Shown: one piece after another, positions 52,360-61,062 of the stretch | Numbering within the stretch: the stretch's first letter is position 1 | How the letters are laid out: each line of letters begins with the position of its first letter | Assembly (NCBI RefSeq): GCF_002976435.1 | Contig: NZ_PUGF01000029.1 | Coordinates: forward strand, 1 to 61,062 | Direction: 5' to 3' | DNA: 61,062 nt | Source of the DNA: Solimicrobium silvestre | GTDB lineage: Bacteria > Pseudomonadota > Gammaproteobacteria > Burkholderiales > Burkholderiaceae_D | Notes under the pieces: generated by a model | What the model was told of the DNA's origin: nothing | The model's input: only the letters and a program-made list of their open reading frames with translations | Database searches by the model: none | Translations under genes and position numbers: made by a program

Positions 52360-52363
52360 TGGA

Positions 52364-52417
52364 TTGAAGTTGGTGTTGAAGTTGGTGTTGAAGTTGGTGT
52401 TGCTGTTGATTTTGACC
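52364..52417 (+). repeat. TTGNNN hexamer array, copy A (9 units)
   Basis: Nine consecutive 6-base units all begin TTG, with TTGAAG and TTGGTG alternating three times and then TTGCTG, TTGATT, TTGACC. The array starts 4 bases after the alkA stop codon and runs straight into the conserved repeat core. Confidence 0.9.
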
Positions 52418-52640
52418 TACCTCCACTTCTAGTTCGGCCGGTTTTTCAACGAGAAAAAGGATCAGAAAGGTTCGCTGTTTGAGCCGCAGGCGAGTTTCGA
52501 ACTTTTCCCTTTTTCTCGTTGAAAAATCGGGGTTTCCGAAATAGCGTGGTCGCTTTTTTTGCTTACTCTTTTTTGGCGAGACAAAAAAAGTGAGTAGCCG
52601 CCGGTCTACCACCGGCCAGCAATTCAAAATAAATTAAGCG
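52418..52640 (+). repeat. Structured dispersed repeat, copy A
   Basis: The core contains hairpin 1 (arms 52442-52460 and 52508-52526, 19 perfect base pairs) with a 47-base loop (52461-52507) that itself holds a GAAAGGTTCG/CGAACTTTTC stem. A small TCGG/CCGA hairpin, a second A/T-run palindrome (about 52553-52598) and a terminal hairpin CCGGT/ACCGG (about 52600-52616) follow. It shares layout and most sequence with copy B at 60559-60812, with stems that covary. Frames read through it (a minus-strand one at 52040-52627) are artefacts. Confidence 0.88.
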
Positions 52641-52697
52641 ACAATTTTTATCCAACCAGAAAACCAGCTCAAAATAGTTGCATATTCACCGTAACGC

Positions 52698-52720
52698 GTG
52701 GGCACAAAAACCATGCCCAC
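52698..52720. repeat. Small palindromic repeat (GTGGGCA...TGCCCAC)
   Basis: A 7-bp inverted repeat with a 9-base loop. The context (ACGCGTGGGCAC, ATGCCCACCCTAC) resembles a small intergenic palindrome seen in many proteobacteria. That resemblance is from memory. It lies between copy A and ogt. Confidence 0.55.
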
Positions 52721-52785
52721 CCTACAAATAAGCTATCCGCCAGCAATCTAAAATATATCAAGCATAAATTTAAGCAGAGATAAAA

Positions 52786-53286
52786 ATGAACACAATCATC
52801 CACTACAAAGAACATCCCTCCCCTTTAGGCCAGCTAACCCTAGCAGCCACCCCCCAAGGAATCTGCGGAATTTACTTCGAAGACCAACGCAACTTCAACG
52901 ACATAAAAGACAAACAAAACTGGCAACACACGGAACATCACCAACACCTAGACAAAGCAACCCACCAACTAGACGAATACTTCGCCGGACAACGCCAACA
53001 CTTCGACGTGCAATTAGATTTACACCTCAGAGGCACAGAGTTTCAGCAAGCCGTGTGGCAAGCATTATTAAGCATTAAATTTGGAAAAACAAGCAGCTAC
53101 GGAGCACACGCCAAACTGATCAACAAACCACTTGCAGTACGCGCAGTAGGCGGCGCAATTGGACGCAATCCAATCTCCATCATCGTGCCATGTCATCGCG
53201 TATTAGGCGGCAACGGCACGCTGACTGGTTATGATGGCGGACTAGATAGGAAAAAATATTTGCTACAGCTTGAAGGCGTCATCTAA
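52786..53286 (+). CDS. ogt: Methylated-DNA--[protein]-cysteine S-methyltransferase
   Basis: Suicide repair enzyme that removes methyl groups from O6-methylguanine. The 166 residues contain an N-terminal domain (SPLGQLTLAATPQGICGIYF), the DNA-binding helix (FQQAVWQALLSIKFGKTSSYGAHA), the Asn-hinge region (AVRAVGGAIGRNP) and the active site IIVPCHRVLGGNGTLTGYDGG with its methyl-acceptor Cys. It is the second alkylation-repair gene after the Ada/AlkA fusion, separated from it by the repeat block. It is therefore probably transcribed on its own. GAGAT precedes the ATG. Confidence 0.95.
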   Translation: MNTIIHYKEHPSPLGQLTLAATPQGICGIYFEDQRNFNDIKDKQNWQHTEHHQHLDKATHQLDEYFAGQRQHFDVQLDLHLRGTEFQQAVWQALLSIKFGKTSSYGAHAKLINKPLAVRAVGGAIGRNPISIIVPCHRVLGGNGTLTGYDGGLDRKKYLLQLEGVI

Positions 53287-53301
53287 ATCAATGTGAACAA
53301 A

Positions 53302-54738
53302 TTAATGTGCAGCAACCATACCCTGCCACCCACCGCCCAATGCCTTCACCAAATACACTGCATTCAGCATTTGCTGTCCGTGAATTTGCACAGCCTGGCG
53401 CTGACTAGCCAACAAAGATTGCTGCGCTGAGATCACATTCAGGTAAATATCCAAACCTCCAGTGTAGCGATCATTGGCAAGTTCCAGCACCCGTGCCGAG
53501 CTGGCCTCCGCTGCTTCTGCCTGATGATTAGCGCCATTCAAAATCGCCATGCTATCAATCCCGGTTTGAACTTCCTGCATGGCGATCAACACACTTTGTC
53601 GATAGTTCGCCGTAGCAGCTACATAGGAAGATTCCGCGATTTTTACATTTGCGGTAGTTTTGCCGGCATCAAATAAATGCTGAGTTAGCCCCGCACCCAG
53701 TGACCAAAGAATGCTAGGCGCATTAAACAAATTTGCCATCTGATTGCTGTCCCAGCCACCATTCGCTTGCAACATAATGGTTGGGTAATAAGCCGCGCGT
53801 GCAACACCAATATTGGCATTCGCTACCGCCATGGCACGCTCTGCCGAAGCCACATCAGGGCGGCGTTGCAATACATCAGCTGGCAAGCCAACCGGTAAAG
53901 AAGGCGCGACTAATTTAACTACTTGCGGGGCCAACTTAAATTCAGGCGCCGGGGTGCCGGTGAGCGTAGAAAGCGCATTTTGAACCGAAGAGCGCTGATT
54001 TTGCAGCAGCACCAATTGCGTTTTATTAGTGTCTAACAAAGCCTGCTGTTCGGCCAAATCCAAACCGGAAGCCGCTTCCAGGTCATGCCGAATGCGAATA
54101 AAGTCTAATGCTTTGGCTTGCAATACCACGCCTTTTTCGACGATATCAATTTCCACATCCAATTCGCGCAAATTGAAATAATCTGCCGCCAGATCGGACA
54201 TCAACATCAATTTGGTATTTTCAAAATCCGCCGTTGCTTGACCTTCAGCCGCCTTGACACCTTCAACGACCCGTCGTACCCGACCAAACAAATCTGCTTC
54301 ATAACCCACAGCAAAACCCAGCTGCGGATTATTTTGCACTACAGAGGAATTCGGCATGCCGTAGACTGCCAACGGTCGATTGGCCGAAGTCTTAAAGCGT
54401 GCATCACTGGCTTGTAAATCAACTTGCGGCAATTGAATAGATGAACTAGCCGTCACTTGCAAACGTGCCTGATTAAGCCGCTCTGCTGCCACCACTAAAC
54501 TTTGGTTATGTTGTGCAGCTTGCTGCTCCAACTGATTGAGTTGCTCGTCACCAAACATCTCCCACCAATTTCCTTTTAACACGCCGTCGCTCGGTTCTGC
54601 TGGATGAAATGAGGTATTGGTTTGCCAGCCTTTGGGCATTGCAACATCAGGCTTTTGATAATCTGGCCCGACCGCACAAGCTGCTAAACAACTCAGCAGC
54701 AAAGCACTGACGGAATAATTGCTTAGTTGCTTATTCAT
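53302..54738 (-). CDS. RND efflux outer-membrane lipoprotein (OprM/NodT family)
   Basis: Outer-membrane channel of the tripartite efflux pump, 478 residues. The lipoprotein signal ends LAACAVGPDYQKP with the lipidated Cys near residue 21. The body has the two structural repeats of TolC-like proteins (ERLNQARLQVTASSSIQLPQVDL, in part, and AVANANIGVARAAYYPTIML). The conserved LQRRPDVASAERAMA and ANDRYTGGLDIYLNVI segments are visible. It is the last gene of the operon, its start overlapping the adaptor gene by 4 bases. Confidence 0.93.
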   Translation of the reverse strand: MNKQLSNYSVSALLLSCLAACAVGPDYQKPDVAMPKGWQTNTSFHPAEPSDGVLKGNWWEMFGDEQLNQLEQQAAQHNQSLVVAAERLNQARLQVTASSSIQLPQVDLQASDARFKTSANRPLAVYGMPNSSVVQNNPQLGFAVGYEADLFGRVRRVVEGVKAAEGQATADFENTKLMLMSDLAADYFNLRELDVEIDIVEKGVVLQAKALDFIRIRHDLEAASGLDLAEQQALLDTNKTQLVLLQNQRSSVQNALSTLTGTPAPEFKLAPQVVKLVAPSLPVGLPADVLQRRPDVASAERAMAVANANIGVARAAYYPTIMLQANGGWDSNQMANLFNAPSILWSLGAGLTQHLFDAGKTTANVKIAESSYVAATANYRQSVLIAMQEVQTGIDSMAILNGANHQAEAAEASSARVLELANDRYTGGLDIYLNVISAQQSLLASQRQAVQIHGQQMLNAVYLVKALGGGWQGMVAAH

Positions 54739-55985
54739 GAATGCGCTTTCCCTGCGGCTTCAGGCTTGTCCTTTTGCACAGTGACGATATCGTTATCAGC
54801 CAGCGAATCAGCGGGGTTGACGATTAAATTATCAGCAGCAGTAATGCCACTCAAAATTTCCAGCGAATTGCCCAGATCATGACCAACCGTCACCGTATGT
54901 AATTGCACATGCCCAGCATTATCAACTACCGCAATCCGCGTACCTTCAGGGCGGAACAACAGCACATTCGATGGTACGCGCAACACATTAGAAGTACCGT
55001 TAGCGGACAAAGCGACTTGCACGTAAGAACCAGCGAGTAATTTATTGTCATGGTTAGGAAGGTTAATTTCCATTTGCAAAGTACGGGTAGCGGCATCAAT
55101 AGCACCGGCAGCGCGAACTACTTTTCCTTGAAATACTTGGTCGCGCATTTCATTTTGAGTGACAGAAACGCTATCGCCAATATTAATACGCTGTGCAAAC
55201 GCCTGCGGCACATACACATACAAACGCAATGGATCAACTTGCGCCATCGTAAATAGCGCACGCCCTGCTCCGCCGTTACCGGCATCAATCAAGTCACCCA
55301 CTTCCACGTTACGACGGGTAATGACGCCAGAAAATGGTGCGAGTACTTTCTTAAAGCCTTCCAGTTTTTGCAAGCGCTGCACATTGGCGTCCGCTGCCTC
55401 CACGTTAGCGACAGCCTGGGTATAAGCACTGCGACGCTCATTGAGTTCTTGCTGGGTTACCGCGTCTTTTTTACGTAACTCTTCCCAGCGTTCTGCTGAA
55501 GTTTTAGCCAAATCTAAACTGGATGCCGATTGCGCTCTGGCTGCAATCGCCTGCGCTAATTGTGAATCGACTTCTGGCGTATCAATTTCCGCTAAAACTT
55601 CATCTTTAACTACGCTGCTGCCGATATCTTTTTTCCAGCGCAAAACATAGCCGCTGCTGCGCGCGTAGATAGGCGCTTCGATGATCCCCTGCAAAGTACT
55701 TGGCAAAGTAATGGTTTCCGTTTTTCCACCACCCTGAGCGTGAATAACGGAGACAAAAACCCGCGCATCCTGCTCGGTAGCACTTGCTAACGTTTGACTA
55801 TGAAGTACGCGCAACACCACGGTTACTCCTGCGCCGAGCAGCAATAGCAGCACAATCAAAATACTAATCATCTTGGCCCGTTTCAATATAGGGGCGTGTG
55901 CAACATGATGCGCATGTGTCGCTGAATGCGAGCCTGTCGCTGCATCAGTATGAATGCCAAGATTGGCGTGACGTTTTTCAGACAT
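54735..55985 (-). CDS. RND efflux periplasmic adaptor (membrane fusion protein, HlyD-like)
   Basis: Periplasmic adaptor linking the pump to the outer-membrane channel. With the ATG at 55985 the protein has 416 residues. I prefer this start because AAGGAA lies about ten bases upstream and it begins one base after the permease stop. Upstream Met codons at 56006 and 56015 overlap the permease gene. It has one N-terminal membrane anchor (MISILIVLLLLLGAGVTVVL), a lipoyl-type segment (APIYARSSGYVLRWKKDIG), a coiled hairpin (about 130-190) and beta-barrel parts (GVITRRNVEVGDLI, ITAADNLIVNP). The His-rich cytoplasmic N terminus (SHSATHAHHVAHA) is unusual and could bind metal, though this is speculative. 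Confidence 0.92.
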   Translation of the reverse strand: MSEKRHANLGIHTDAATGSHSATHAHHVAHAPILKRAKMISILIVLLLLLGAGVTVVLRVLHSQTLASATEQDARVFVSVIHAQGGGKTETITLPSTLQGIIEAPIYARSSGYVLRWKKDIGSSVVKDEVLAEIDTPEVDSQLAQAIAARAQSASSLDLAKTSAERWEELRKKDAVTQQELNERRSAYTQAVANVEAADANVQRLQKLEGFKKVLAPFSGVITRRNVEVGDLIDAGNGGAGRALFTMAQVDPLRLYVYVPQAFAQRINIGDSVSVTQNEMRDQVFQGKVVRAAGAIDAATRTLQMEINLPNHDNKLLAGSYVQVALSANGTSNVLRVPSNVLLFRPEGTRIAVVDNAGHVQLHTVTVGHDLGNSLEILSGITAADNLIVNPADSLADNDIVTVQKDKPEAAGKAHS

Positions 55986-55986
55986 G

Positions 55987-58900
55987 TTAAGTATTTCCTT
56001 CTTCATTACCTGCATTAGCTGCGGACAACGATGGTGATAGATTTAATGAATGGTTCCGTGCTTCTTTACGATGTTCTAAATAGCGATGTATGCCGGCAAA
56101 CACAACTGGTACAAAAAATAAGGTGGATACCGTGGCAAATAACAGCCCACCGATCACAGCACGACCTAACGGTGCATTTTGTTCAGCACCTTCACCGAAG
56201 CCAATCGCCATCGGAATCATACCGATAATCATTGCCAGTGCGGTCATTAATACCGGACGAATCCGGGTGGCCCCGGCTTCTAACGCGGCTGACAAAGGCG
56301 GCGCGCCATCTAGCATGCGCTGGCGTGCAAACGACACCATCAAAATACTATTTGCGGTAGCGACCCCCATGGTCATAATCGCTCCGGTCAGGGCTGGCAC
56401 ACTAAGCGTGGTGCCGGTTAAAAACAGCATCCAGACAATCCCTGCCAGTGCGGCCGGTAACGCGGTAATGATAATGAACGGATCCACCCATGATTGGAAG
56501 TTAACCACGATCAGCAAATAGACCAACACAATCGCCATCAGCAAGCCGATACCTAAACCGAAGAACGACGATTTCATCGTTTCTACCTGACCGCGTATCA
56601 CCATATGCGTACCGCGTGGTAAATCAGGGCGCATTTGTTCAACCAGTTTTTCTACCTGATCTGAAACTCCACCCAGATCACGGCCTTGCACACTCACGTA
56701 CAAATCAATCACCGGAGTGATGTTGTAATGAGAAACGTCCGCCATTTGCTCGGCTGGCGCAACTTGCACCAAGTTACTCAACAATTGTGGTGCGGTGTTA
56801 GGGTTGGTGTTGGTACCTGATTTAACTGGCGTGCGCAACAACGCATCCATATCACTAATCTGGTATTGCGGTGTTTGCACGGCGATGTTGTACACAACGC
56901 CATTGCCAGGATTTAACCAGAACGCCGGAGCCGTTTGCGAACTACCCGACAAGGACACCAACAAGTTTTGCGCCAGATCAACCGGATTTAATCCGAGTTG
57001 CTTAATCTGGTTACGGTCCATGGTCATTGCCAAGGTCGGCAGATTTAATTTTTGTTGAATATGTACATCCACCGCACCAGGAATTTGCTTAACCTGCTTC
57101 ATCAATTTACTGGCAAGCTGGTAATTATTCGCCAAATTACTTCCAGAAATCTGCACGTCCAACGCGGCCGGCAAACCGAAGTTAAGAATTTGGGTGACGA
57201 TATCGGCAGGCTGGAAGAAAAATTCAACGCTAGGAAAACGCTTCGGCAATTCACTGCGTAATTTATCAACATACGAGACGCTTGGTTGATGATGTTCATT
57301 GAGTGAAATTTGAATTTCGCCATCCATCGTGCCTATCGTTCCCGAATTGCTATAGGAGAGATTAATACCGCTATAAGGCAAGCCTAAATTATCTAAAACG
57401 GTTTCCAGCTCGGAAGCAGGAATAATTTCACGGATCACTTTTTCTACTTCATCCGCGATTCGTGCCGTTTCTTCAATCCGGGTACCGGTTGGCGCACGCA
57501 TGTGCAAGCGAATCTGGCCTGAATCAACGCTAGGGAAAAAGTCGCGCCCCAAGAAAAACACCAAGCCCAAAGACAGAACGCAGAACCCTAAAAAGAGGCT
57601 GCCAAACTCTTTACGATGCGTGAGTAATTTCGACAAAATAATCACGTAACCGCCGCGGAATTTTTCAAATCCGGCATCGAATTTGCGATATACCCGCTGT
57701 AATAAACTCGGCTTAGCCGATGCATCTACCTGATTGTGATTTTTCATCATCAGCATCACCATGGTCGGTACCAAAGTACGCGACAACACATACGACGCCA
57801 GCATCGCAAACACCACGGCTTCCGCTAACGGCACAAACAAATAACGCGCCACGCCAGTTAAGAAAAACATCGGTACAAAAACGATACAAATACACAGCGT
57901 AGATACCAATGCCGGAATCGCAATTTCACCTGCACCGTCCAGAATAGCGGTATGCAAATCGGAACCTAAATGCAAATGGCGTTCAATATTTTCTATCGTC
58001 ACTGTGGCATCATCGACCAAAATACCGACCGCCAAAGCCAAGCCGCCCAGCGTCATAATATTAATGGTTTCACCCATGGCAGATAAAGCCAGTAATGACG
58101 ACAAAATAGAAAGTGGAATAGAAACCGCAATAATGCAGGTGCTGCGCCAGTTACCCAAGAACAGCAAAATCATGGCCGCAGTTAAACAGGCCGCAATTAC
58201 CGCTTCATGGATCACACCGCTAATCGCCGCCCGAACAAATACCGACTGATCTAGCAACGTCTTGATCTTTAGCTCTTTAGGCAGACTTTGCATCGCCGTC
58301 GGCAACAGCGTGCGCAAGTTACTCACTACATCCAAGGTTGACGCATTACCGTTTTTTAATACCGACACCAACACGCCGCGCTCACCGTTTTGGCGCACGA
58401 TATTGGTTTGCGGCGAGAAACCGTCGCGCACTCGCGCCACTTCGGAAAGATTGGTCGACGTACCGTTTTTAGCAAGTACCGGCACATTATTTAAGCCCTC
58501 TATCGTATCCGGCGAACCGTTCATGGTGACGTTATATTCGCTGCTCCCCATTTTGACGGTACCAGAAGGTAAAGTCAGATTTTGTGCACTGATGGCATTC
58601 ACTACGTCAGTAGAAGTCAAGCCTTTGGAGAGCATCGCCTGCGTATCCAGATCCACCGACACCAGCCGCATTTTTCCGCCATACGGATAAGGAATTGCCG
58701 CGCCGGGGACCGTAATTAATTGCGGGCGTAAAAAGTTAAGCGCGGTATCGCTTAACGCCTGCTCGGTCATGGAGTTACTGGAAAGTCCAAGTTGAATAAC
58801 TGGAATACTAGATGCGGAGTATTTAATAATCAGCGGCGGGGTAATACCCGGTGGCAGGGAACGTAATTGCGCCTGCTCAATTGCCACCACTTGCGCTATC

Positions 58901-59214
58901 GCGGTTTGAATATTGGCATTGGGTTGGAAAAATATCTTAATCACTGAAATACCAGACAGTGATTGCGATTCAATATGCTCAATATCATTCACCGTAGTCG
59001 TCAGGCTGCGCTCACTGGTTGCGGTAATCCGCTGCCCCATCTCTTGCGCCGACAAACCGCCGTAATTCCAGATAATACTAATTACTGGAATATTAATGTC
59101 TGGGAAAATATCCGTCGCCATTTTGGTAAGGACCAACGGCGTTGACAATAAAATCAATAACGCCATCACGATAAACGTGTAAGGGCGTCGTAGGGCTATA
59201 TTAACTATCCACAT
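55987..59214 (-). CDS. RND efflux pump inner-membrane permease (HAE1/AcrB-like)
   Basis: Proton-driven inner-membrane transporter of the pump, 1075 residues from ATG 59214. It starts MWIVNIALRRPYTFIVMALL, and a longer frame to 59295 lacks homology-like sequence. It has twelve predicted membrane segments with two large periplasmic loops. The proton-relay aspartates are the DD in GGLALAVGILVDDATVTIENIERHL near residue 405. A second-half counterpart lies at GAIMTMGVATANSILMVSFAR near 955. The aspartate pair and lack of CzcA metal-site features suggest drug or organic efflux, but the substrate is unknown. It heads the operon with the adaptor and the channel and diverges from the EamA gene. Confidence 0.92.
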   Translation of the reverse strand: MWIVNIALRRPYTFIVMALLILLSTPLVLTKMATDIFPDINIPVISIIWNYGGLSAQEMGQRITATSERSLTTTVNDIEHIESQSLSGISVIKIFFQPNANIQTAIAQVVAIEQAQLRSLPPGITPPLIIKYSASSIPVIQLGLSSNSMTEQALSDTALNFLRPQLITVPGAAIPYPYGGKMRLVSVDLDTQAMLSKGLTSTDVVNAISAQNLTLPSGTVKMGSSEYNVTMNGSPDTIEGLNNVPVLAKNGTSTNLSEVARVRDGFSPQTNIVRQNGERGVLVSVLKNGNASTLDVVSNLRTLLPTAMQSLPKELKIKTLLDQSVFVRAAISGVIHEAVIAACLTAAMILLFLGNWRSTCIIAVSIPLSILSSLLALSAMGETINIMTLGGLALAVGILVDDATVTIENIERHLHLGSDLHTAILDGAGEIAIPALVSTLCICIVFVPMFFLTGVARYLFVPLAEAVVFAMLASYVLSRTLVPTMVMLMMKNHNQVDASAKPSLLQRVYRKFDAGFEKFRGGYVIILSKLLTHRKEFGSLFLGFCVLSLGLVFFLGRDFFPSVDSGQIRLHMRAPTGTRIEETARIADEVEKVIREIIPASELETVLDNLGLPYSGINLSYSNSGTIGTMDGEIQISLNEHHQPSVSYVDKLRSELPKRFPSVEFFFQPADIVTQILNFGLPAALDVQISGSNLANNYQLASKLMKQVKQIPGAVDVHIQQKLNLPTLAMTMDRNQIKQLGLNPVDLAQNLLVSLSGSSQTAPAFWLNPGNGVVYNIAVQTPQYQISDMDALLRTPVKSGTNTNPNTAPQLLSNLVQVAPAEQMADVSHYNITPVIDLYVSVQGRDLGGVSDQVEKLVEQMRPDLPRGTHMVIRGQVETMKSSFFGLGIGLLMAIVLVYLLIVVNFQSWVDPFIIITALPAALAGIVWMLFLTGTTLSVPALTGAIMTMGVATANSILMVSFARQRMLDGAPPLSAALEAGATRIRPVLMTALAMIIGMIPMAIGFGEGAEQNAPLGRAVIGGLLFATVSTLFFVPVVFAGIHRYLEHRKEARNHSLNLSPSLSAANAGNEEGNT

Positions 59215-59403
59215 CTTGAGTGCGTTCCGTTCTGAAAAGTCAGAATTTGACGGGCGCAAATTACAAAAGTTCCACATGGAAACTTTTAATTCCACAACAT
59301 AATGGAATCTACTAATTCAAGCTTCGTCAAAAAAGTAAAGTTTTATAAAATCAATTTAGTTTAAATCTGTTACTAGCGGCAGGTTTTCTCGTTAAGTGTC
59401 AAA

Positions 59404-60381
59404 ATGCCGGGCTCAAACTGTATTCAACTGCAACCTACAACCCCATTCGCACCAAAACAACCCGGAGAATTTTTGAAAACCACCGACTTTATCCGCCTCA
59501 TCTGCCTATCCGCTATTTGGGGTGCTAGCTTTCTTTTTATGCGCATCATCGTTCCTGTATTAGGGGTACTACCTAGTTCATTTATTCGGGTGTTTTTTGC
59601 TTCAATCGGCTTACTGATTATTATTGCCGCACTTCAATTTTCGATTCATTTTAAAGGAAAATTAAAATCCTTGTTGCTGCTCGGCATTTTCAGCTCAGGA
59701 ATTCCGGTATTGATGTACAGTATTGCCGCTCTAGTACTACCCGCCGGTTACTCTGCTATTTTCAACGCCACCACGCCGCTAATGGGTATATTGATAGGTG
59801 CGTTATTTTTCTCAGAAAAACTCACCATCGCCAAAGCCGCAGGTGTGTTATTTGGTCTAGCTGGTGTTGCTGTCTTAACGCGCACTGGCCCAGTTGCTCT
59901 CAACGGACAGGTTCTGCTTGGTGCTGCAGCTTGCCTGGTTGCTACCAGCTGTTATGGACTAGCCGGATTTTTAACCAAACGCTGGATTTCTGAGCGAGGC
60001 GGGCTAGACAGCAGATTAGTCGCCTTAGGCACTCAGCTAGGTGCAACAGCACTGCTGTTACCGCCATTTATTTTCAGCGTAAGCACCAATCCACCAGCCA
60101 CTTGGGGCGGCACAGGCGTTTGGTTAGCTATTGCCGGACTCGGATTCATATGCACCTCGCTTGCTTACATCATGTACTTCCGACTAATCGCTGATATCGG
60201 CCCGGTTAAATCACTTACCGTTACGTTTTTAATCCCTCCGTTCGGGGTATTTTGGGGTTGGATTTTTTTAGGTGAGCAAATTACCTGGGCGCATTTGGGC
60301 GGGGGGATGTTGATTGCGGTGGCGTTGTGGTTGGTGCTTATGCAGCACAAGCCCCGGTCAGTTAGTAATGTTAAGCACTGA
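59404..60381 (+). CDS. EamA/DMT-family transporter (RhaT-like)
   Basis: Inner-membrane drug/metabolite transporter with ten hydrophobic helices in two EamA halves (IWGASFLFMRIIVPVLGVLPSSFIR in part, near the start, and a second half from about residue 175). It ends LGGGMLIAVALWLVLMQH. The ATG is at 59404, but a TTG at 59473 has GGAG at 59464-59467 and would place the start directly before helix 1, as is usual. The first 23 residues may therefore be untranslated. The substrate is unknown. It diverges from the efflux operon, and its stop codon lies 21 bases before hexamer array B. Confidence 0.88.
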   Translation: MPGSNCIQLQPTTPFAPKQPGEFLKTTDFIRLICLSAIWGASFLFMRIIVPVLGVLPSSFIRVFFASIGLLIIIAALQFSIHFKGKLKSLLLLGIFSSGIPVLMYSIAALVLPAGYSAIFNATTPLMGILIGALFFSEKLTIAKAAGVLFGLAGVAVLTRTGPVALNGQVLLGAAACLVATSCYGLAGFLTKRWISERGGLDSRLVALGTQLGATALLLPPFIFSVSTNPPATWGGTGVWLAIAGLGFICTSLAYIMYFRLIADIGPVKSLTVTFLIPPFGVFWGWIFLGEQITWAHLGGGMLIAVALWLVLMQHKPRSVSNVKH

Positions 60382-60402
60382 GGTGGTTAAAATTTGCATG
60401 TG

Positions 60403-60558
60403 TTGACGTTTCTTTTGAAGTTGAAGTTGAAGTTGAAGTTGAAGTTGAAGTTGAAGTTGAAGTTGACGTTGCTGTTGCTGTTGAAGTTGACGTTGCTGTT
60501 GAAGTTGACGTTGCTGTTGCCCTTGAAGTTGTCTTTGAAGTTGTTGTTGATTTTGACC
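60403..60558 (+). repeat. TTGNNN hexamer array, copy B (26 units)
   Basis: Twenty-six in-phase 6-base units, almost all starting TTG, include seven uninterrupted TTGAAG (60421-60462) preceded by one more. Variants TTGACG and TTGCTG occur later. The last three units, TTGTTG, TTGATT and TTGACC, lead into the core as in copy A. On the minus strand it reads as Leu-Gln/Arg-Gln repeats, but that frame is not a gene. Confidence 0.92.
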
Positions 60559-60812
60559 TACCCCCACTTCTAGTTCGGCCGGTTTTTTTAAGGAAAAAAG
60601 GATCAGAAAGGTTCGCTGTTTGAGCCGCAGGCGAGTTTCGAACTTTTCCCTTTTTTTCTTAAAAAAATCGGGGTTTCCGAAATAGCGTGGTCGCCTTTTT
60701 TGGCCTACCTTTTTTGGCGACGCAAAAAAGGCAGGTAGCCGCCGGTCTACCACCGGCCTACAAGCATCGGATTAGCTCCGAAAGCAATTCAAAAATCATC
60801 AGTAAATTAACT
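60559..60812 (+). repeat. Structured dispersed repeat, copy B
   Basis: Same design as copy A. Hairpin 1 has arms 60583-60601 and 60649-60667 (18 Watson-Crick pairs plus one G-T). The 47-base loop (60602-60648) is identical to copy A. A second palindrome of CCTTTTTTGG and CAAAAAAGG runs and a terminal CCGGT/ACCGG hairpin follow. About 24 bases are inserted before the shared AGCAATTCAAAA tail. Confidence 0.88.
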
Positions 60813-60893
60813 GGTTTTAACGTATTTTCAAATCCAAAGCTGATATTGCGCAAACTCAAACTAATCAACTGAAATGACAAACTTAAGGCTTAG

Positions 60894-60932
60894 GGCCGGT
60901 GGTAGACCGGCGACTAGTCACCTTTTTTGCTT
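60894..60932 (-). repeat. Truncated inverted third copy of the structured repeat
   Basis: GGCCGGTGGTAGACCGGCG at 60895-60913 is the reverse complement of the terminal hairpin region of copies A and B. It is followed by a CACCTTTTTTGC run that matches their second palindrome. The rest of the core is missing. Confidence 0.75.
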
Positions 60933-60948
60933 CGCTGTTTAGACGTGG

Positions 60949-60983
60949 GACATAGGTAACGGGTGTATCCAGACATGGGTAAC
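60949..60983. mobile_element. Possible insertion-sequence end
   Basis: Two direct copies of GACATRGGTAAC (60949-60960 and 60972-60983) start 23 bases apart. From memory such sequences occur near the ends of IS481-type elements. No transposase is in view, and the element, if real, would extend beyond the right edge or be a remnant. Confidence 0.3.
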
Positions 60984-61062
60984 ACATTTAAGCCGAATTA
61001 GTTGCAGCGCGCAAGTCGATTTTAAGAATCTTCTGGCGACAGTAAAATACATTAAATACACC

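Follow-up and report, generated by a model that had tools for sequence, protein, structure and literature searches.

What selects the pairing, and not the letters, of a hairpin stem present twice in one stretch of a bacterial genome? This question is raised by positions 1 to 61,062 of contig NZ_PUGF01000029.1 of Solimicrobium silvestre (this whole stretch is called the window below), which carry two plus-strand copies of a repeat, copy A (52363-52617) and copy B (60402-60758), whose stem arms differ while remaining complementary. An earlier note on this DNA had concluded that such compensatory change points to a folded RNA or DNA, and not to a decaying repeat, a conclusion that is now strongly supported by additional copies, by other genera and by an asymmetry between G.T and A.C mismatches; its overall interpretation is only partly supported, for reasons given below. 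The resemblance of the two copies is far beyond chance. Indeed, they belong to a large dispersed repeat family, conserved in structure, of which one strand folds and which has been gained or lost between species. The explanation that we favour, with about even confidence, is that they are members of a non-autonomous dispersed family, similar to miniature inverted-repeat transposable elements (MITEs) or repetitive extragenic palindromes (REPs), that works as one folded single strand.

Architecture and covariation in Solimicrobium silvestre

Each unit comprises a core of about 210 bp plus a tract of (G/T)TTGNN hexamers, its parts following one another on the plus strand, 5' to 3', as hexamer tract, TTTTGACCTACCYCCACTTCTAGTTCGG, hairpin A, CCGAAATAGCGTGG, hairpin B and module C. 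Hairpin A, hairpin B and the pseudoknot-like module C are common to the family, the hexamer tract being found in front of them in S. silvestre and several relatives. In copy A, direct reading and the alignment described below place hairpin A at 52423..52549. Its outer stem combines CCAC/GTGG with CTAGTTCGG/CCGAAATAG, including one G.A, and encloses a covarying stem (52440-52460 / 52508-52528) and a 47-nt loop (52461-52507) that contains an inner stem and a GCC-GCA-GGC tip. In copy B, hairpin A occupies 60564..60690, with the covarying stem at 60581-60601 / 60649-60669 and the loop at 60602-60648. As the earlier note stated, the arms TTTTTCAACGAGAAAAAGG (52442-52460) and TTTTTTTAAGGAAAAAAGG (60583-60601) differ at five positions, four of them matched by the opposite arm while at the fifth an A-T pair becomes G.T, and the loop is the same in both copies. 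The second palindrome does change in step, as was also claimed, but its pairing in copy B is imperfect, with one A.C in CCTACC / GGCAGG.

In hairpin B (52550..52595 in copy A, 60691..60736 in copy B), T, T and A runs surround GGCGAGAC or GGCGACGC; in copy A, a T-run precedes CTTACTCTTTTTTG / CAAAAAAAGTGAG, which flank an apex of the GGCGAGAC type, and the apex of copy B is GGCGACGC. Module C (52594..52617 and 60735..60758) consists of a GTAG tag and a GCCGG/CCGGC hairpin whose CTAC loop is complementary to the tag.

The earlier note had named a lack of further copies, or changes that break the pairing, as outcomes contrary to its reading, and neither was encountered. The search for further copies that it suggested yielded 46 matching pieces in the genome with blastn and at least 48 full matches (E up to 2e-22) with a covariance model built from 37 copies of this genome, a lower bound since 150 of 1690 candidates were scored. 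Forty-one copies, two of them those of the window, were fetched and examined, and 37 were aligned on a hand-written structure, the four carrying an insert in hairpin A and the copies found later being left out. In this alignment, 97.4% of 2405 pair cells are paired, versus 90.1% after shuffling, both sides have changed in 23 of 70 pairs (12.6 in shuffles), and 159 cells of the whole structure show double changes (50 in shuffles, none of 500 as high). The covariation score reaches 0.181, versus 0.065 in shuffles (0 of 500 as high) and 0.008-0.037 for slid partners, although shuffles are an optimistic control for copies that are related. The stems are free in sequence yet kept paired. Within this genome the 47-base loop is nearly constant, its variants differing by 2 nt, and the ten pairs of its inner stem and the two tip pairs never vary, so they say nothing about pairing there.

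The hexamer tract was present in all 41 copies examined, with 3 to 26 units counted within 160 nt. It consists in copy A (52363..52416, direct reading) of eight (N)TTGNN units followed by TTTGAC and in copy B (60402..60551) of 25 units, one of them imperfect. Over 413 units, the three letters of TTG are kept in 406, 411 and 410, the last two bases vary freely and adjacent units are frequently duplicated. Near-fixation of TTG beside freely varying bases indicates selection on TTG, and not slippage alone; that the tract is a protein-binding array is a guess.

Some copies depart from this layout. Three (G000:C1:504536-504744, C12:17941-18148 and C15:101973-102181) form a second subfamily with another outer stem, in which ATTCAGCGGCAGTGGG replaces TTTCCGAAATAGCGTGG on the right side. 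A hairpin-rich mini-element of about 95 bp (GTGTAGCAAGGGTTTCGTG...) lies inside the hairpin A loop of four of the 41 copies (L004:1346-1651, L029, L031 and L033), and a similar one inside the module C loop of three (L007:1463-1659, L012 and L015:1481-1682), that is, hairpins inserted into hairpin loops.

Conservation of the fold across genera

A pattern combining the loop and hairpin B occurs in at least 111 stretches of named genomes (80 loci listed) from Variovorax, Polaromonas, Undibacterium, Collimonas, Glaciimonas, Duganella, Curvibacter, Silvimonas and others, and also in Aggregatibacter and two Cardiobacteriaceae bins. In the host family, a similar pattern is found in 16 of 97 genomes, S. 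silvestre included, and in 10 of 44 genera, a reversed control giving 0. Presented with 95 loci from other bacteria, most of them Burkholderiales but also Aggregatibacter and Cardiobacteriaceae, the S. silvestre covariance model matches every one; these loci had been preselected by their loop and hairpin B letters, and locus L052 was not included in the scan. Copy numbers can be high, with at least 75 element matches in genome G019 and at least 19 in Glaciimonas G114.

From 52 hand-chosen loci of the 95, leaving out matches with E > 1e-15, 67 cross-genus matches were aligned to the model. They pair in 94.4% of cells, versus 67.6% when shuffled, and show double changes in 60 of 66 pairs, the only invariant ones being two tip pairs and one hairpin B pair, figures that lean toward the model structure because the alignment was fitted to it. 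A comparison independent of this fit, in which each left arm was scored against all right arms in the 93 elements with full flanks (the others were dropped), gave a median score of 26 for cognate arms versus 13 for foreign ones, the cognate being best or tied in 59 of 93. The inner stem of the loop does vary in other genera, and in the loop only the two GC tip pairs never do. The earlier proposal that the whole 47-base loop is an invariant recognition site is not supported: across genera, only the loop tip is constant.

The tract is less widespread than the core. Five or more in-phase TTG occur upstream of 29 of 29 S. silvestre elements, 4 of 4 in Collimonas, 17 of 29 in Glaciimonas, 9 of 20 in Undibacterium, the single one in Silvimonas and 2 of 16 in others, and of none of the 24 Variovorax, 12 Polaromonas, 6 Curvibacter and 1 Duganella elements. 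In one Aggregatibacter element (L091:4107-4190), hairpin B is lengthened by an insert matching the Rfam small RNA family AaHKsRNA22.

Strand that folds and structure of module C

When the stems were folded with G.U forbidden and single mismatches within them were counted, G.T exceeded A.C by 103 to 3 in the 41 S. silvestre copies and by 88 to 21 in 91 copies from other genera. In 47 representatives obtained by clustering at 80% identity, the counts are 62 and 6, versus 58 and 73 in 224 control stretches; 28 representatives lean to G.T, one to A.C and 18 tie (p about 1e-7). This excess indicates that one strand folds, the one written here with the tract 5', and led us to reject repair of a double-stranded palindrome as the sole cause. 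A strand-specific mutation bias on an exposed plus strand could be its source, which would itself imply single-strand exposure.

Module C was examined with an anchored tag-loop test, in which 40 of 152 loops were dropped, their anchor not being found, and the 112 remaining modules collapsed to 51 distinct ones. Over the five tag-loop pairs, 224 of 255 cells are Watson-Crick, versus 138 in shuffles (maximum 162), and all but one of the 255 cells of the second stem (254) hold standard pairs, with an alternation of C-G and T-A at the second position. This test replaced an earlier greedy hairpin search that mixed both stems (mean 2.59 versus 2.23 shuffled). The arms of module C succeed one another as in an H-type pseudoknot whose loops measure 1, 0 and 1-4 nt. 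Of the 51 distinct modules, 14 have a GT(A/G)G tag, the others carrying TCGC, CTGG, CTAG, TCGG and so on, with matching loops.

GNA triloops are very stable in DNA. They make up 24 of 100 distinct triloop hairpins of the element, versus 117 of 2083 in the background (an earlier count gave 26 of 89 versus 143 of 2648), 15 TNC loops in the distinct count being attributed to the central hairpin of a Variovorax composite counted in both senses. The effect weakened when distinct hairpins were counted, so these triloops were abandoned as a proof of DNA and kept as a hint.

Composite forms, gain and loss, and insertions into the element

Five pairs in the S. silvestre genome (L004, L005, L006, L007 and L015) are arranged head to head with their C ends facing. 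Copy B formerly had such a partner, now reduced to a minus-strand remnant (60894..60935) made of module C and part of hairpin B, and separated from it by a spacer (60766..60893) that, by eye, resembles those of other head-to-head pairs. Genome G019 has many pairs with a gap of about 170 bp. The Variovorax composite has its C ends outside and forms a 578-bp inverted repeat (L061:6188-6765) whose ends recur in many of the genomic matches listed.

The remnant of the partner of copy B is cut in the apex of hairpin B by an insertion-sequence-like end (60936-61062), as are seven of the 41 S. silvestre copies (L005, L018, L024, L025, L026, L028 and L030), at GGCGA|AG or GGCGACG|, by two related ends of this kind (TGTWTAGACGTGRGACAT...); six of the seven lie at contig ends. 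In G019, seven head-to-head pairs spaced by about 1.7 kb resembled a transposon bounded by copies of the element, and hence an autonomous parent. However, their body is one IS66-family insertion (NF033517, 304.9 bits) in the apex of hairpin B, found in all seven pairs fetched (L253-L259) and bordered by an 8-bp duplication of the GGCGAAGC type at the four junctions read. The tip of hairpin B is a target common to different insertion sequences.

Comparison of loci between congeners shows presence and absence of the element. At one Glaciimonas locus, conserved neighbours are separated by 760 bp in G095, where the element is present, and by about 268 (G073), 218 (G115), 296 (G114) and 44 bp (G018) in congeners. 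None of these four gaps holds an element among the matches listed; one scan covered G073 and G114 only, and the sequence of the gap was read for G073 only. Another Glaciimonas locus (L163), with a single flank conserved in one congener, is uninformative on gain or loss. At a Variovorax locus compared in 13 genomes, the 578-bp unit is present in four, a gap of 46-56 bp in four and fused tips in one; three others have their flanks further apart (with no element motif in G124) and one has no flank match. At a second locus, six of seven genomes carry the unit and the seventh keeps fused tips joined at CTCG. These two collapses look like slippage deletions of the palindrome.

Gene neighbourhood and coding potential

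Neighbouring genes were named by crude open reading frame calling, after frames overlapping the element had been dropped. Among the 30 copies with both neighbours called, nine gaps have both genes in the sense of the element and 12 both against it, seven are convergent and two divergent, a layout that resembles the placement of REPs and argues against a one-way role in mRNA. The earlier observation that copies lie right after a stop codon on the plus strand is exact for both window copies and is not general, as the upstream neighbour has the same orientation in just 26 of 41 copies.

Minus-strand open frames cover both window copies. Such frames (82-241 codons) cross the core in 21 of 41 copies and usually end soon after the element; the other 20 have none, and no copy has a plus-strand one. 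A coding role was rejected on these counts and because loop variants differing by 2 nt shift any reading frame. The one-sidedness of the 21 minus-strand frames sits unexplained beside this rejection; read as CAANNN, the tract has few stops.

Comparison with known repeat families

Rfam has no match above its curated thresholds in the window, where a lax threshold gives only chance-level eukaryotic families. In 18 related loci, the sole match on the element is AaHKsRNA22, which falls on the insert nested within hairpin B at L091; RNase P and a His leader match elsewhere in these loci. As the earlier note supposed, no described family was found, in Rfam or in the open-access literature searched (most subscription literature being outside that search), and the repeat family is apparently undescribed.

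REPs, their composites (bacterial interspersed mosaic elements, BIMEs) and REPINs, associated with RAYT tyrosine transposases, share with this family a high copy number, a GC-rich hairpin with a 4-nt tag (often GTAG here), inverted dimers and single-strand folding (PMC2817692; PMC3733652; PMC3116915). A REP has a GT(A/G)G head followed by a GC-rich imperfect palindrome, its cognate RAYT gene being flanked by repeats (Nunvar 2010), and a unit size of 20-40 bp (Di Nocera 2013). By contrast, the present family has a core of about 210 bp plus the tract, three domains and a tag that covaries with its loop instead of being fixed, and no RAYT gene flanked by the element was found at the loci examined. 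MITEs such as Correia are likewise short, non-coding, dispersed and apparently non-autonomous, with composites having inverted halves (PMC10969869), and the present family is indeed a dispersed non-coding multicopy unit. It differs in that no transposase-bearing element with matching ends was found, outside any systematic search for a parent, and in that its fold is conserved and its sequence is not. The betaproteobacterial repeat element (BRE), compared by description and not by sequence, also occurs in Betaproteobacteria, including Polaromonas JS666, and is usually intergenic and possibly mobile, but it measures about 90 bp and is sometimes in tandem (PMC3110155). Finally, with two equal pyrimidine runs and, on the same strand, a purine run that matches them, hairpin B might adopt an intrastrand triplex like the TMECO motifs, which differ in being of G/C-rich purine type and 37 nt long, whereas hairpin B is T/A-rich and part of a larger unit (PMC4666352).

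Probable nature and mobility of the element

From this distribution and fold, we infer non-autonomous mobility through a folded single strand. The element would be exposed as a single strand, most likely DNA, and copies would spread from it; an enzyme acting in trans, encoded by the host or specific to the element, would recognise the hairpins and the constant GC-GNA-GC tip, and this recognition step would select structure, not sequence. Several observations weigh against such mobility. The two junctions that read most clearly record losses, so that absence of the element from a site may be due to loss, and an insertion of the element itself, cleanly bordered by a target duplication, was not observed. 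Neither a transposase nor a reverse transcriptase could be linked to the family. The ends of the Variovorax composite are inverted, and the sole candidate parent, found outside any systematic parent search, is the IS66-family insertion of G019. The strict pattern is found in none of the viral contigs, and plasmid and phage records lack the S. silvestre variant, the only one searched there, an uncommon finding for a mobile element. As for the molecule, the pseudoknot and the tolerance of wobble pairs suit RNA as well as DNA, and folding energy separates neither strands nor molecules, copy B having as DNA -50.9 kcal/mol (z -6.7) for the plus strand and -48.0 kcal/mol (z -5.8) for the minus strand, and a z of -5.7 when folded as RNA.

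The nearest competitor, which we consider rather doubtful, is a family of structured non-coding RNA genes: a folded transcript of the plus strand would work in trans, or would be converted back to DNA (retro-mobile). Strong covariation at almost all pairs, a tolerance of G.T confined to one strand, a compact pseudoknot-like module in which both stems covary and the multi-domain layout would all fit an RNA. Its difficulties are the lack of an Rfam match on the element itself in the window and the 18 related loci (the nested insert of L091 apart), the slight orientation preference relative to the neighbours that would supply transcription and, as a mild lean only, the ratio of GNA triloops to GNRA tetraloops (24 to 6 in the element, 117 to 54 in the background). 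A role in cis instead, as an mRNA 3' element or a transcription terminator, would fit the rarity of copies in divergent gaps (2 of 30) and the stop codon that precedes each window copy; yet gaps between genes of one direction hold the element in both senses, and its T-runs, which contain interrupting C in most related loci shown, do not lie directly 3' of hairpin A, which leaves this role very improbable.

Mobilisation of a classical REP, BIME or REPIN by a RAYT is an unlikely account too, despite the GTAG-tagged GC-rich hairpin often seen in the module C of S. silvestre, the head-to-head dimers and an intergenic placement like that of REPs as far as PMC2817692 and PMC3733652 describe it. The tag is GT(A/G)G in a minority of modules and changes together with its loop. 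S. silvestre has seven NF047646 matches, including two clear RAYT genes above the NCBIfam cut-off (202 and 204 bits), and these two adjoin other hairpins, GTAG-type repeats of their own that by eye are unlike module C (L048:1250-1360, 1917-1980; L049:810-865). No element motif occurs within about 1.5 kb (less at contig ends) of the four matches examined of these seven, nor of 12 single Variovorax Y1 genes, and Glaciimonas G114 has no NF047646 match in spite of its many elements; a RAYT as mobiliser is weakened accordingly. As 94 of 97 host-family genomes have an NF047646 match, its presence says little. Equally improbable is the absence of any function. Palindromes are prone to template switching, which during replication could copy one arm onto the other and make compensation a mutational outcome, and the deletions between short direct repeats at palindrome ends in the two Variovorax loci read as slippage products. 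However, arm-copying is blind to strand and should give G.T and A.C intermediates in equal numbers, contrary to the excess seen in the 47 representatives, and the fold persists from Burkholderiales to Cardiobacteriaceae despite changes in most letters of the stems.

Significance of the family

For genome analysis, the family explains spurious reading frames that overlap the repeat (two in the window) as well as some breaks in the assembly, since six of the 41 copies are cut at a contig end by insertion-sequence-like ends. More largely, and tentatively, it may represent a broad class of selfish genetic elements defined by shape, in which hardly anything besides the fold is conserved (three hairpin domains, a pseudoknot and the GC-GNA-GC tip), extending from Burkholderiales into Gammaproteobacteria and spreading via a folded single-stranded DNA or RNA intermediate and an enzyme. 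Dispersed palindromic repeats are usually grouped by sequence, whereas this family is best followed, over many genera, by its fold. It predicts a factor that reads this fold and, with its very many compensated changes, provides a natural experiment on the features that a folded single strand needs in order to persist.

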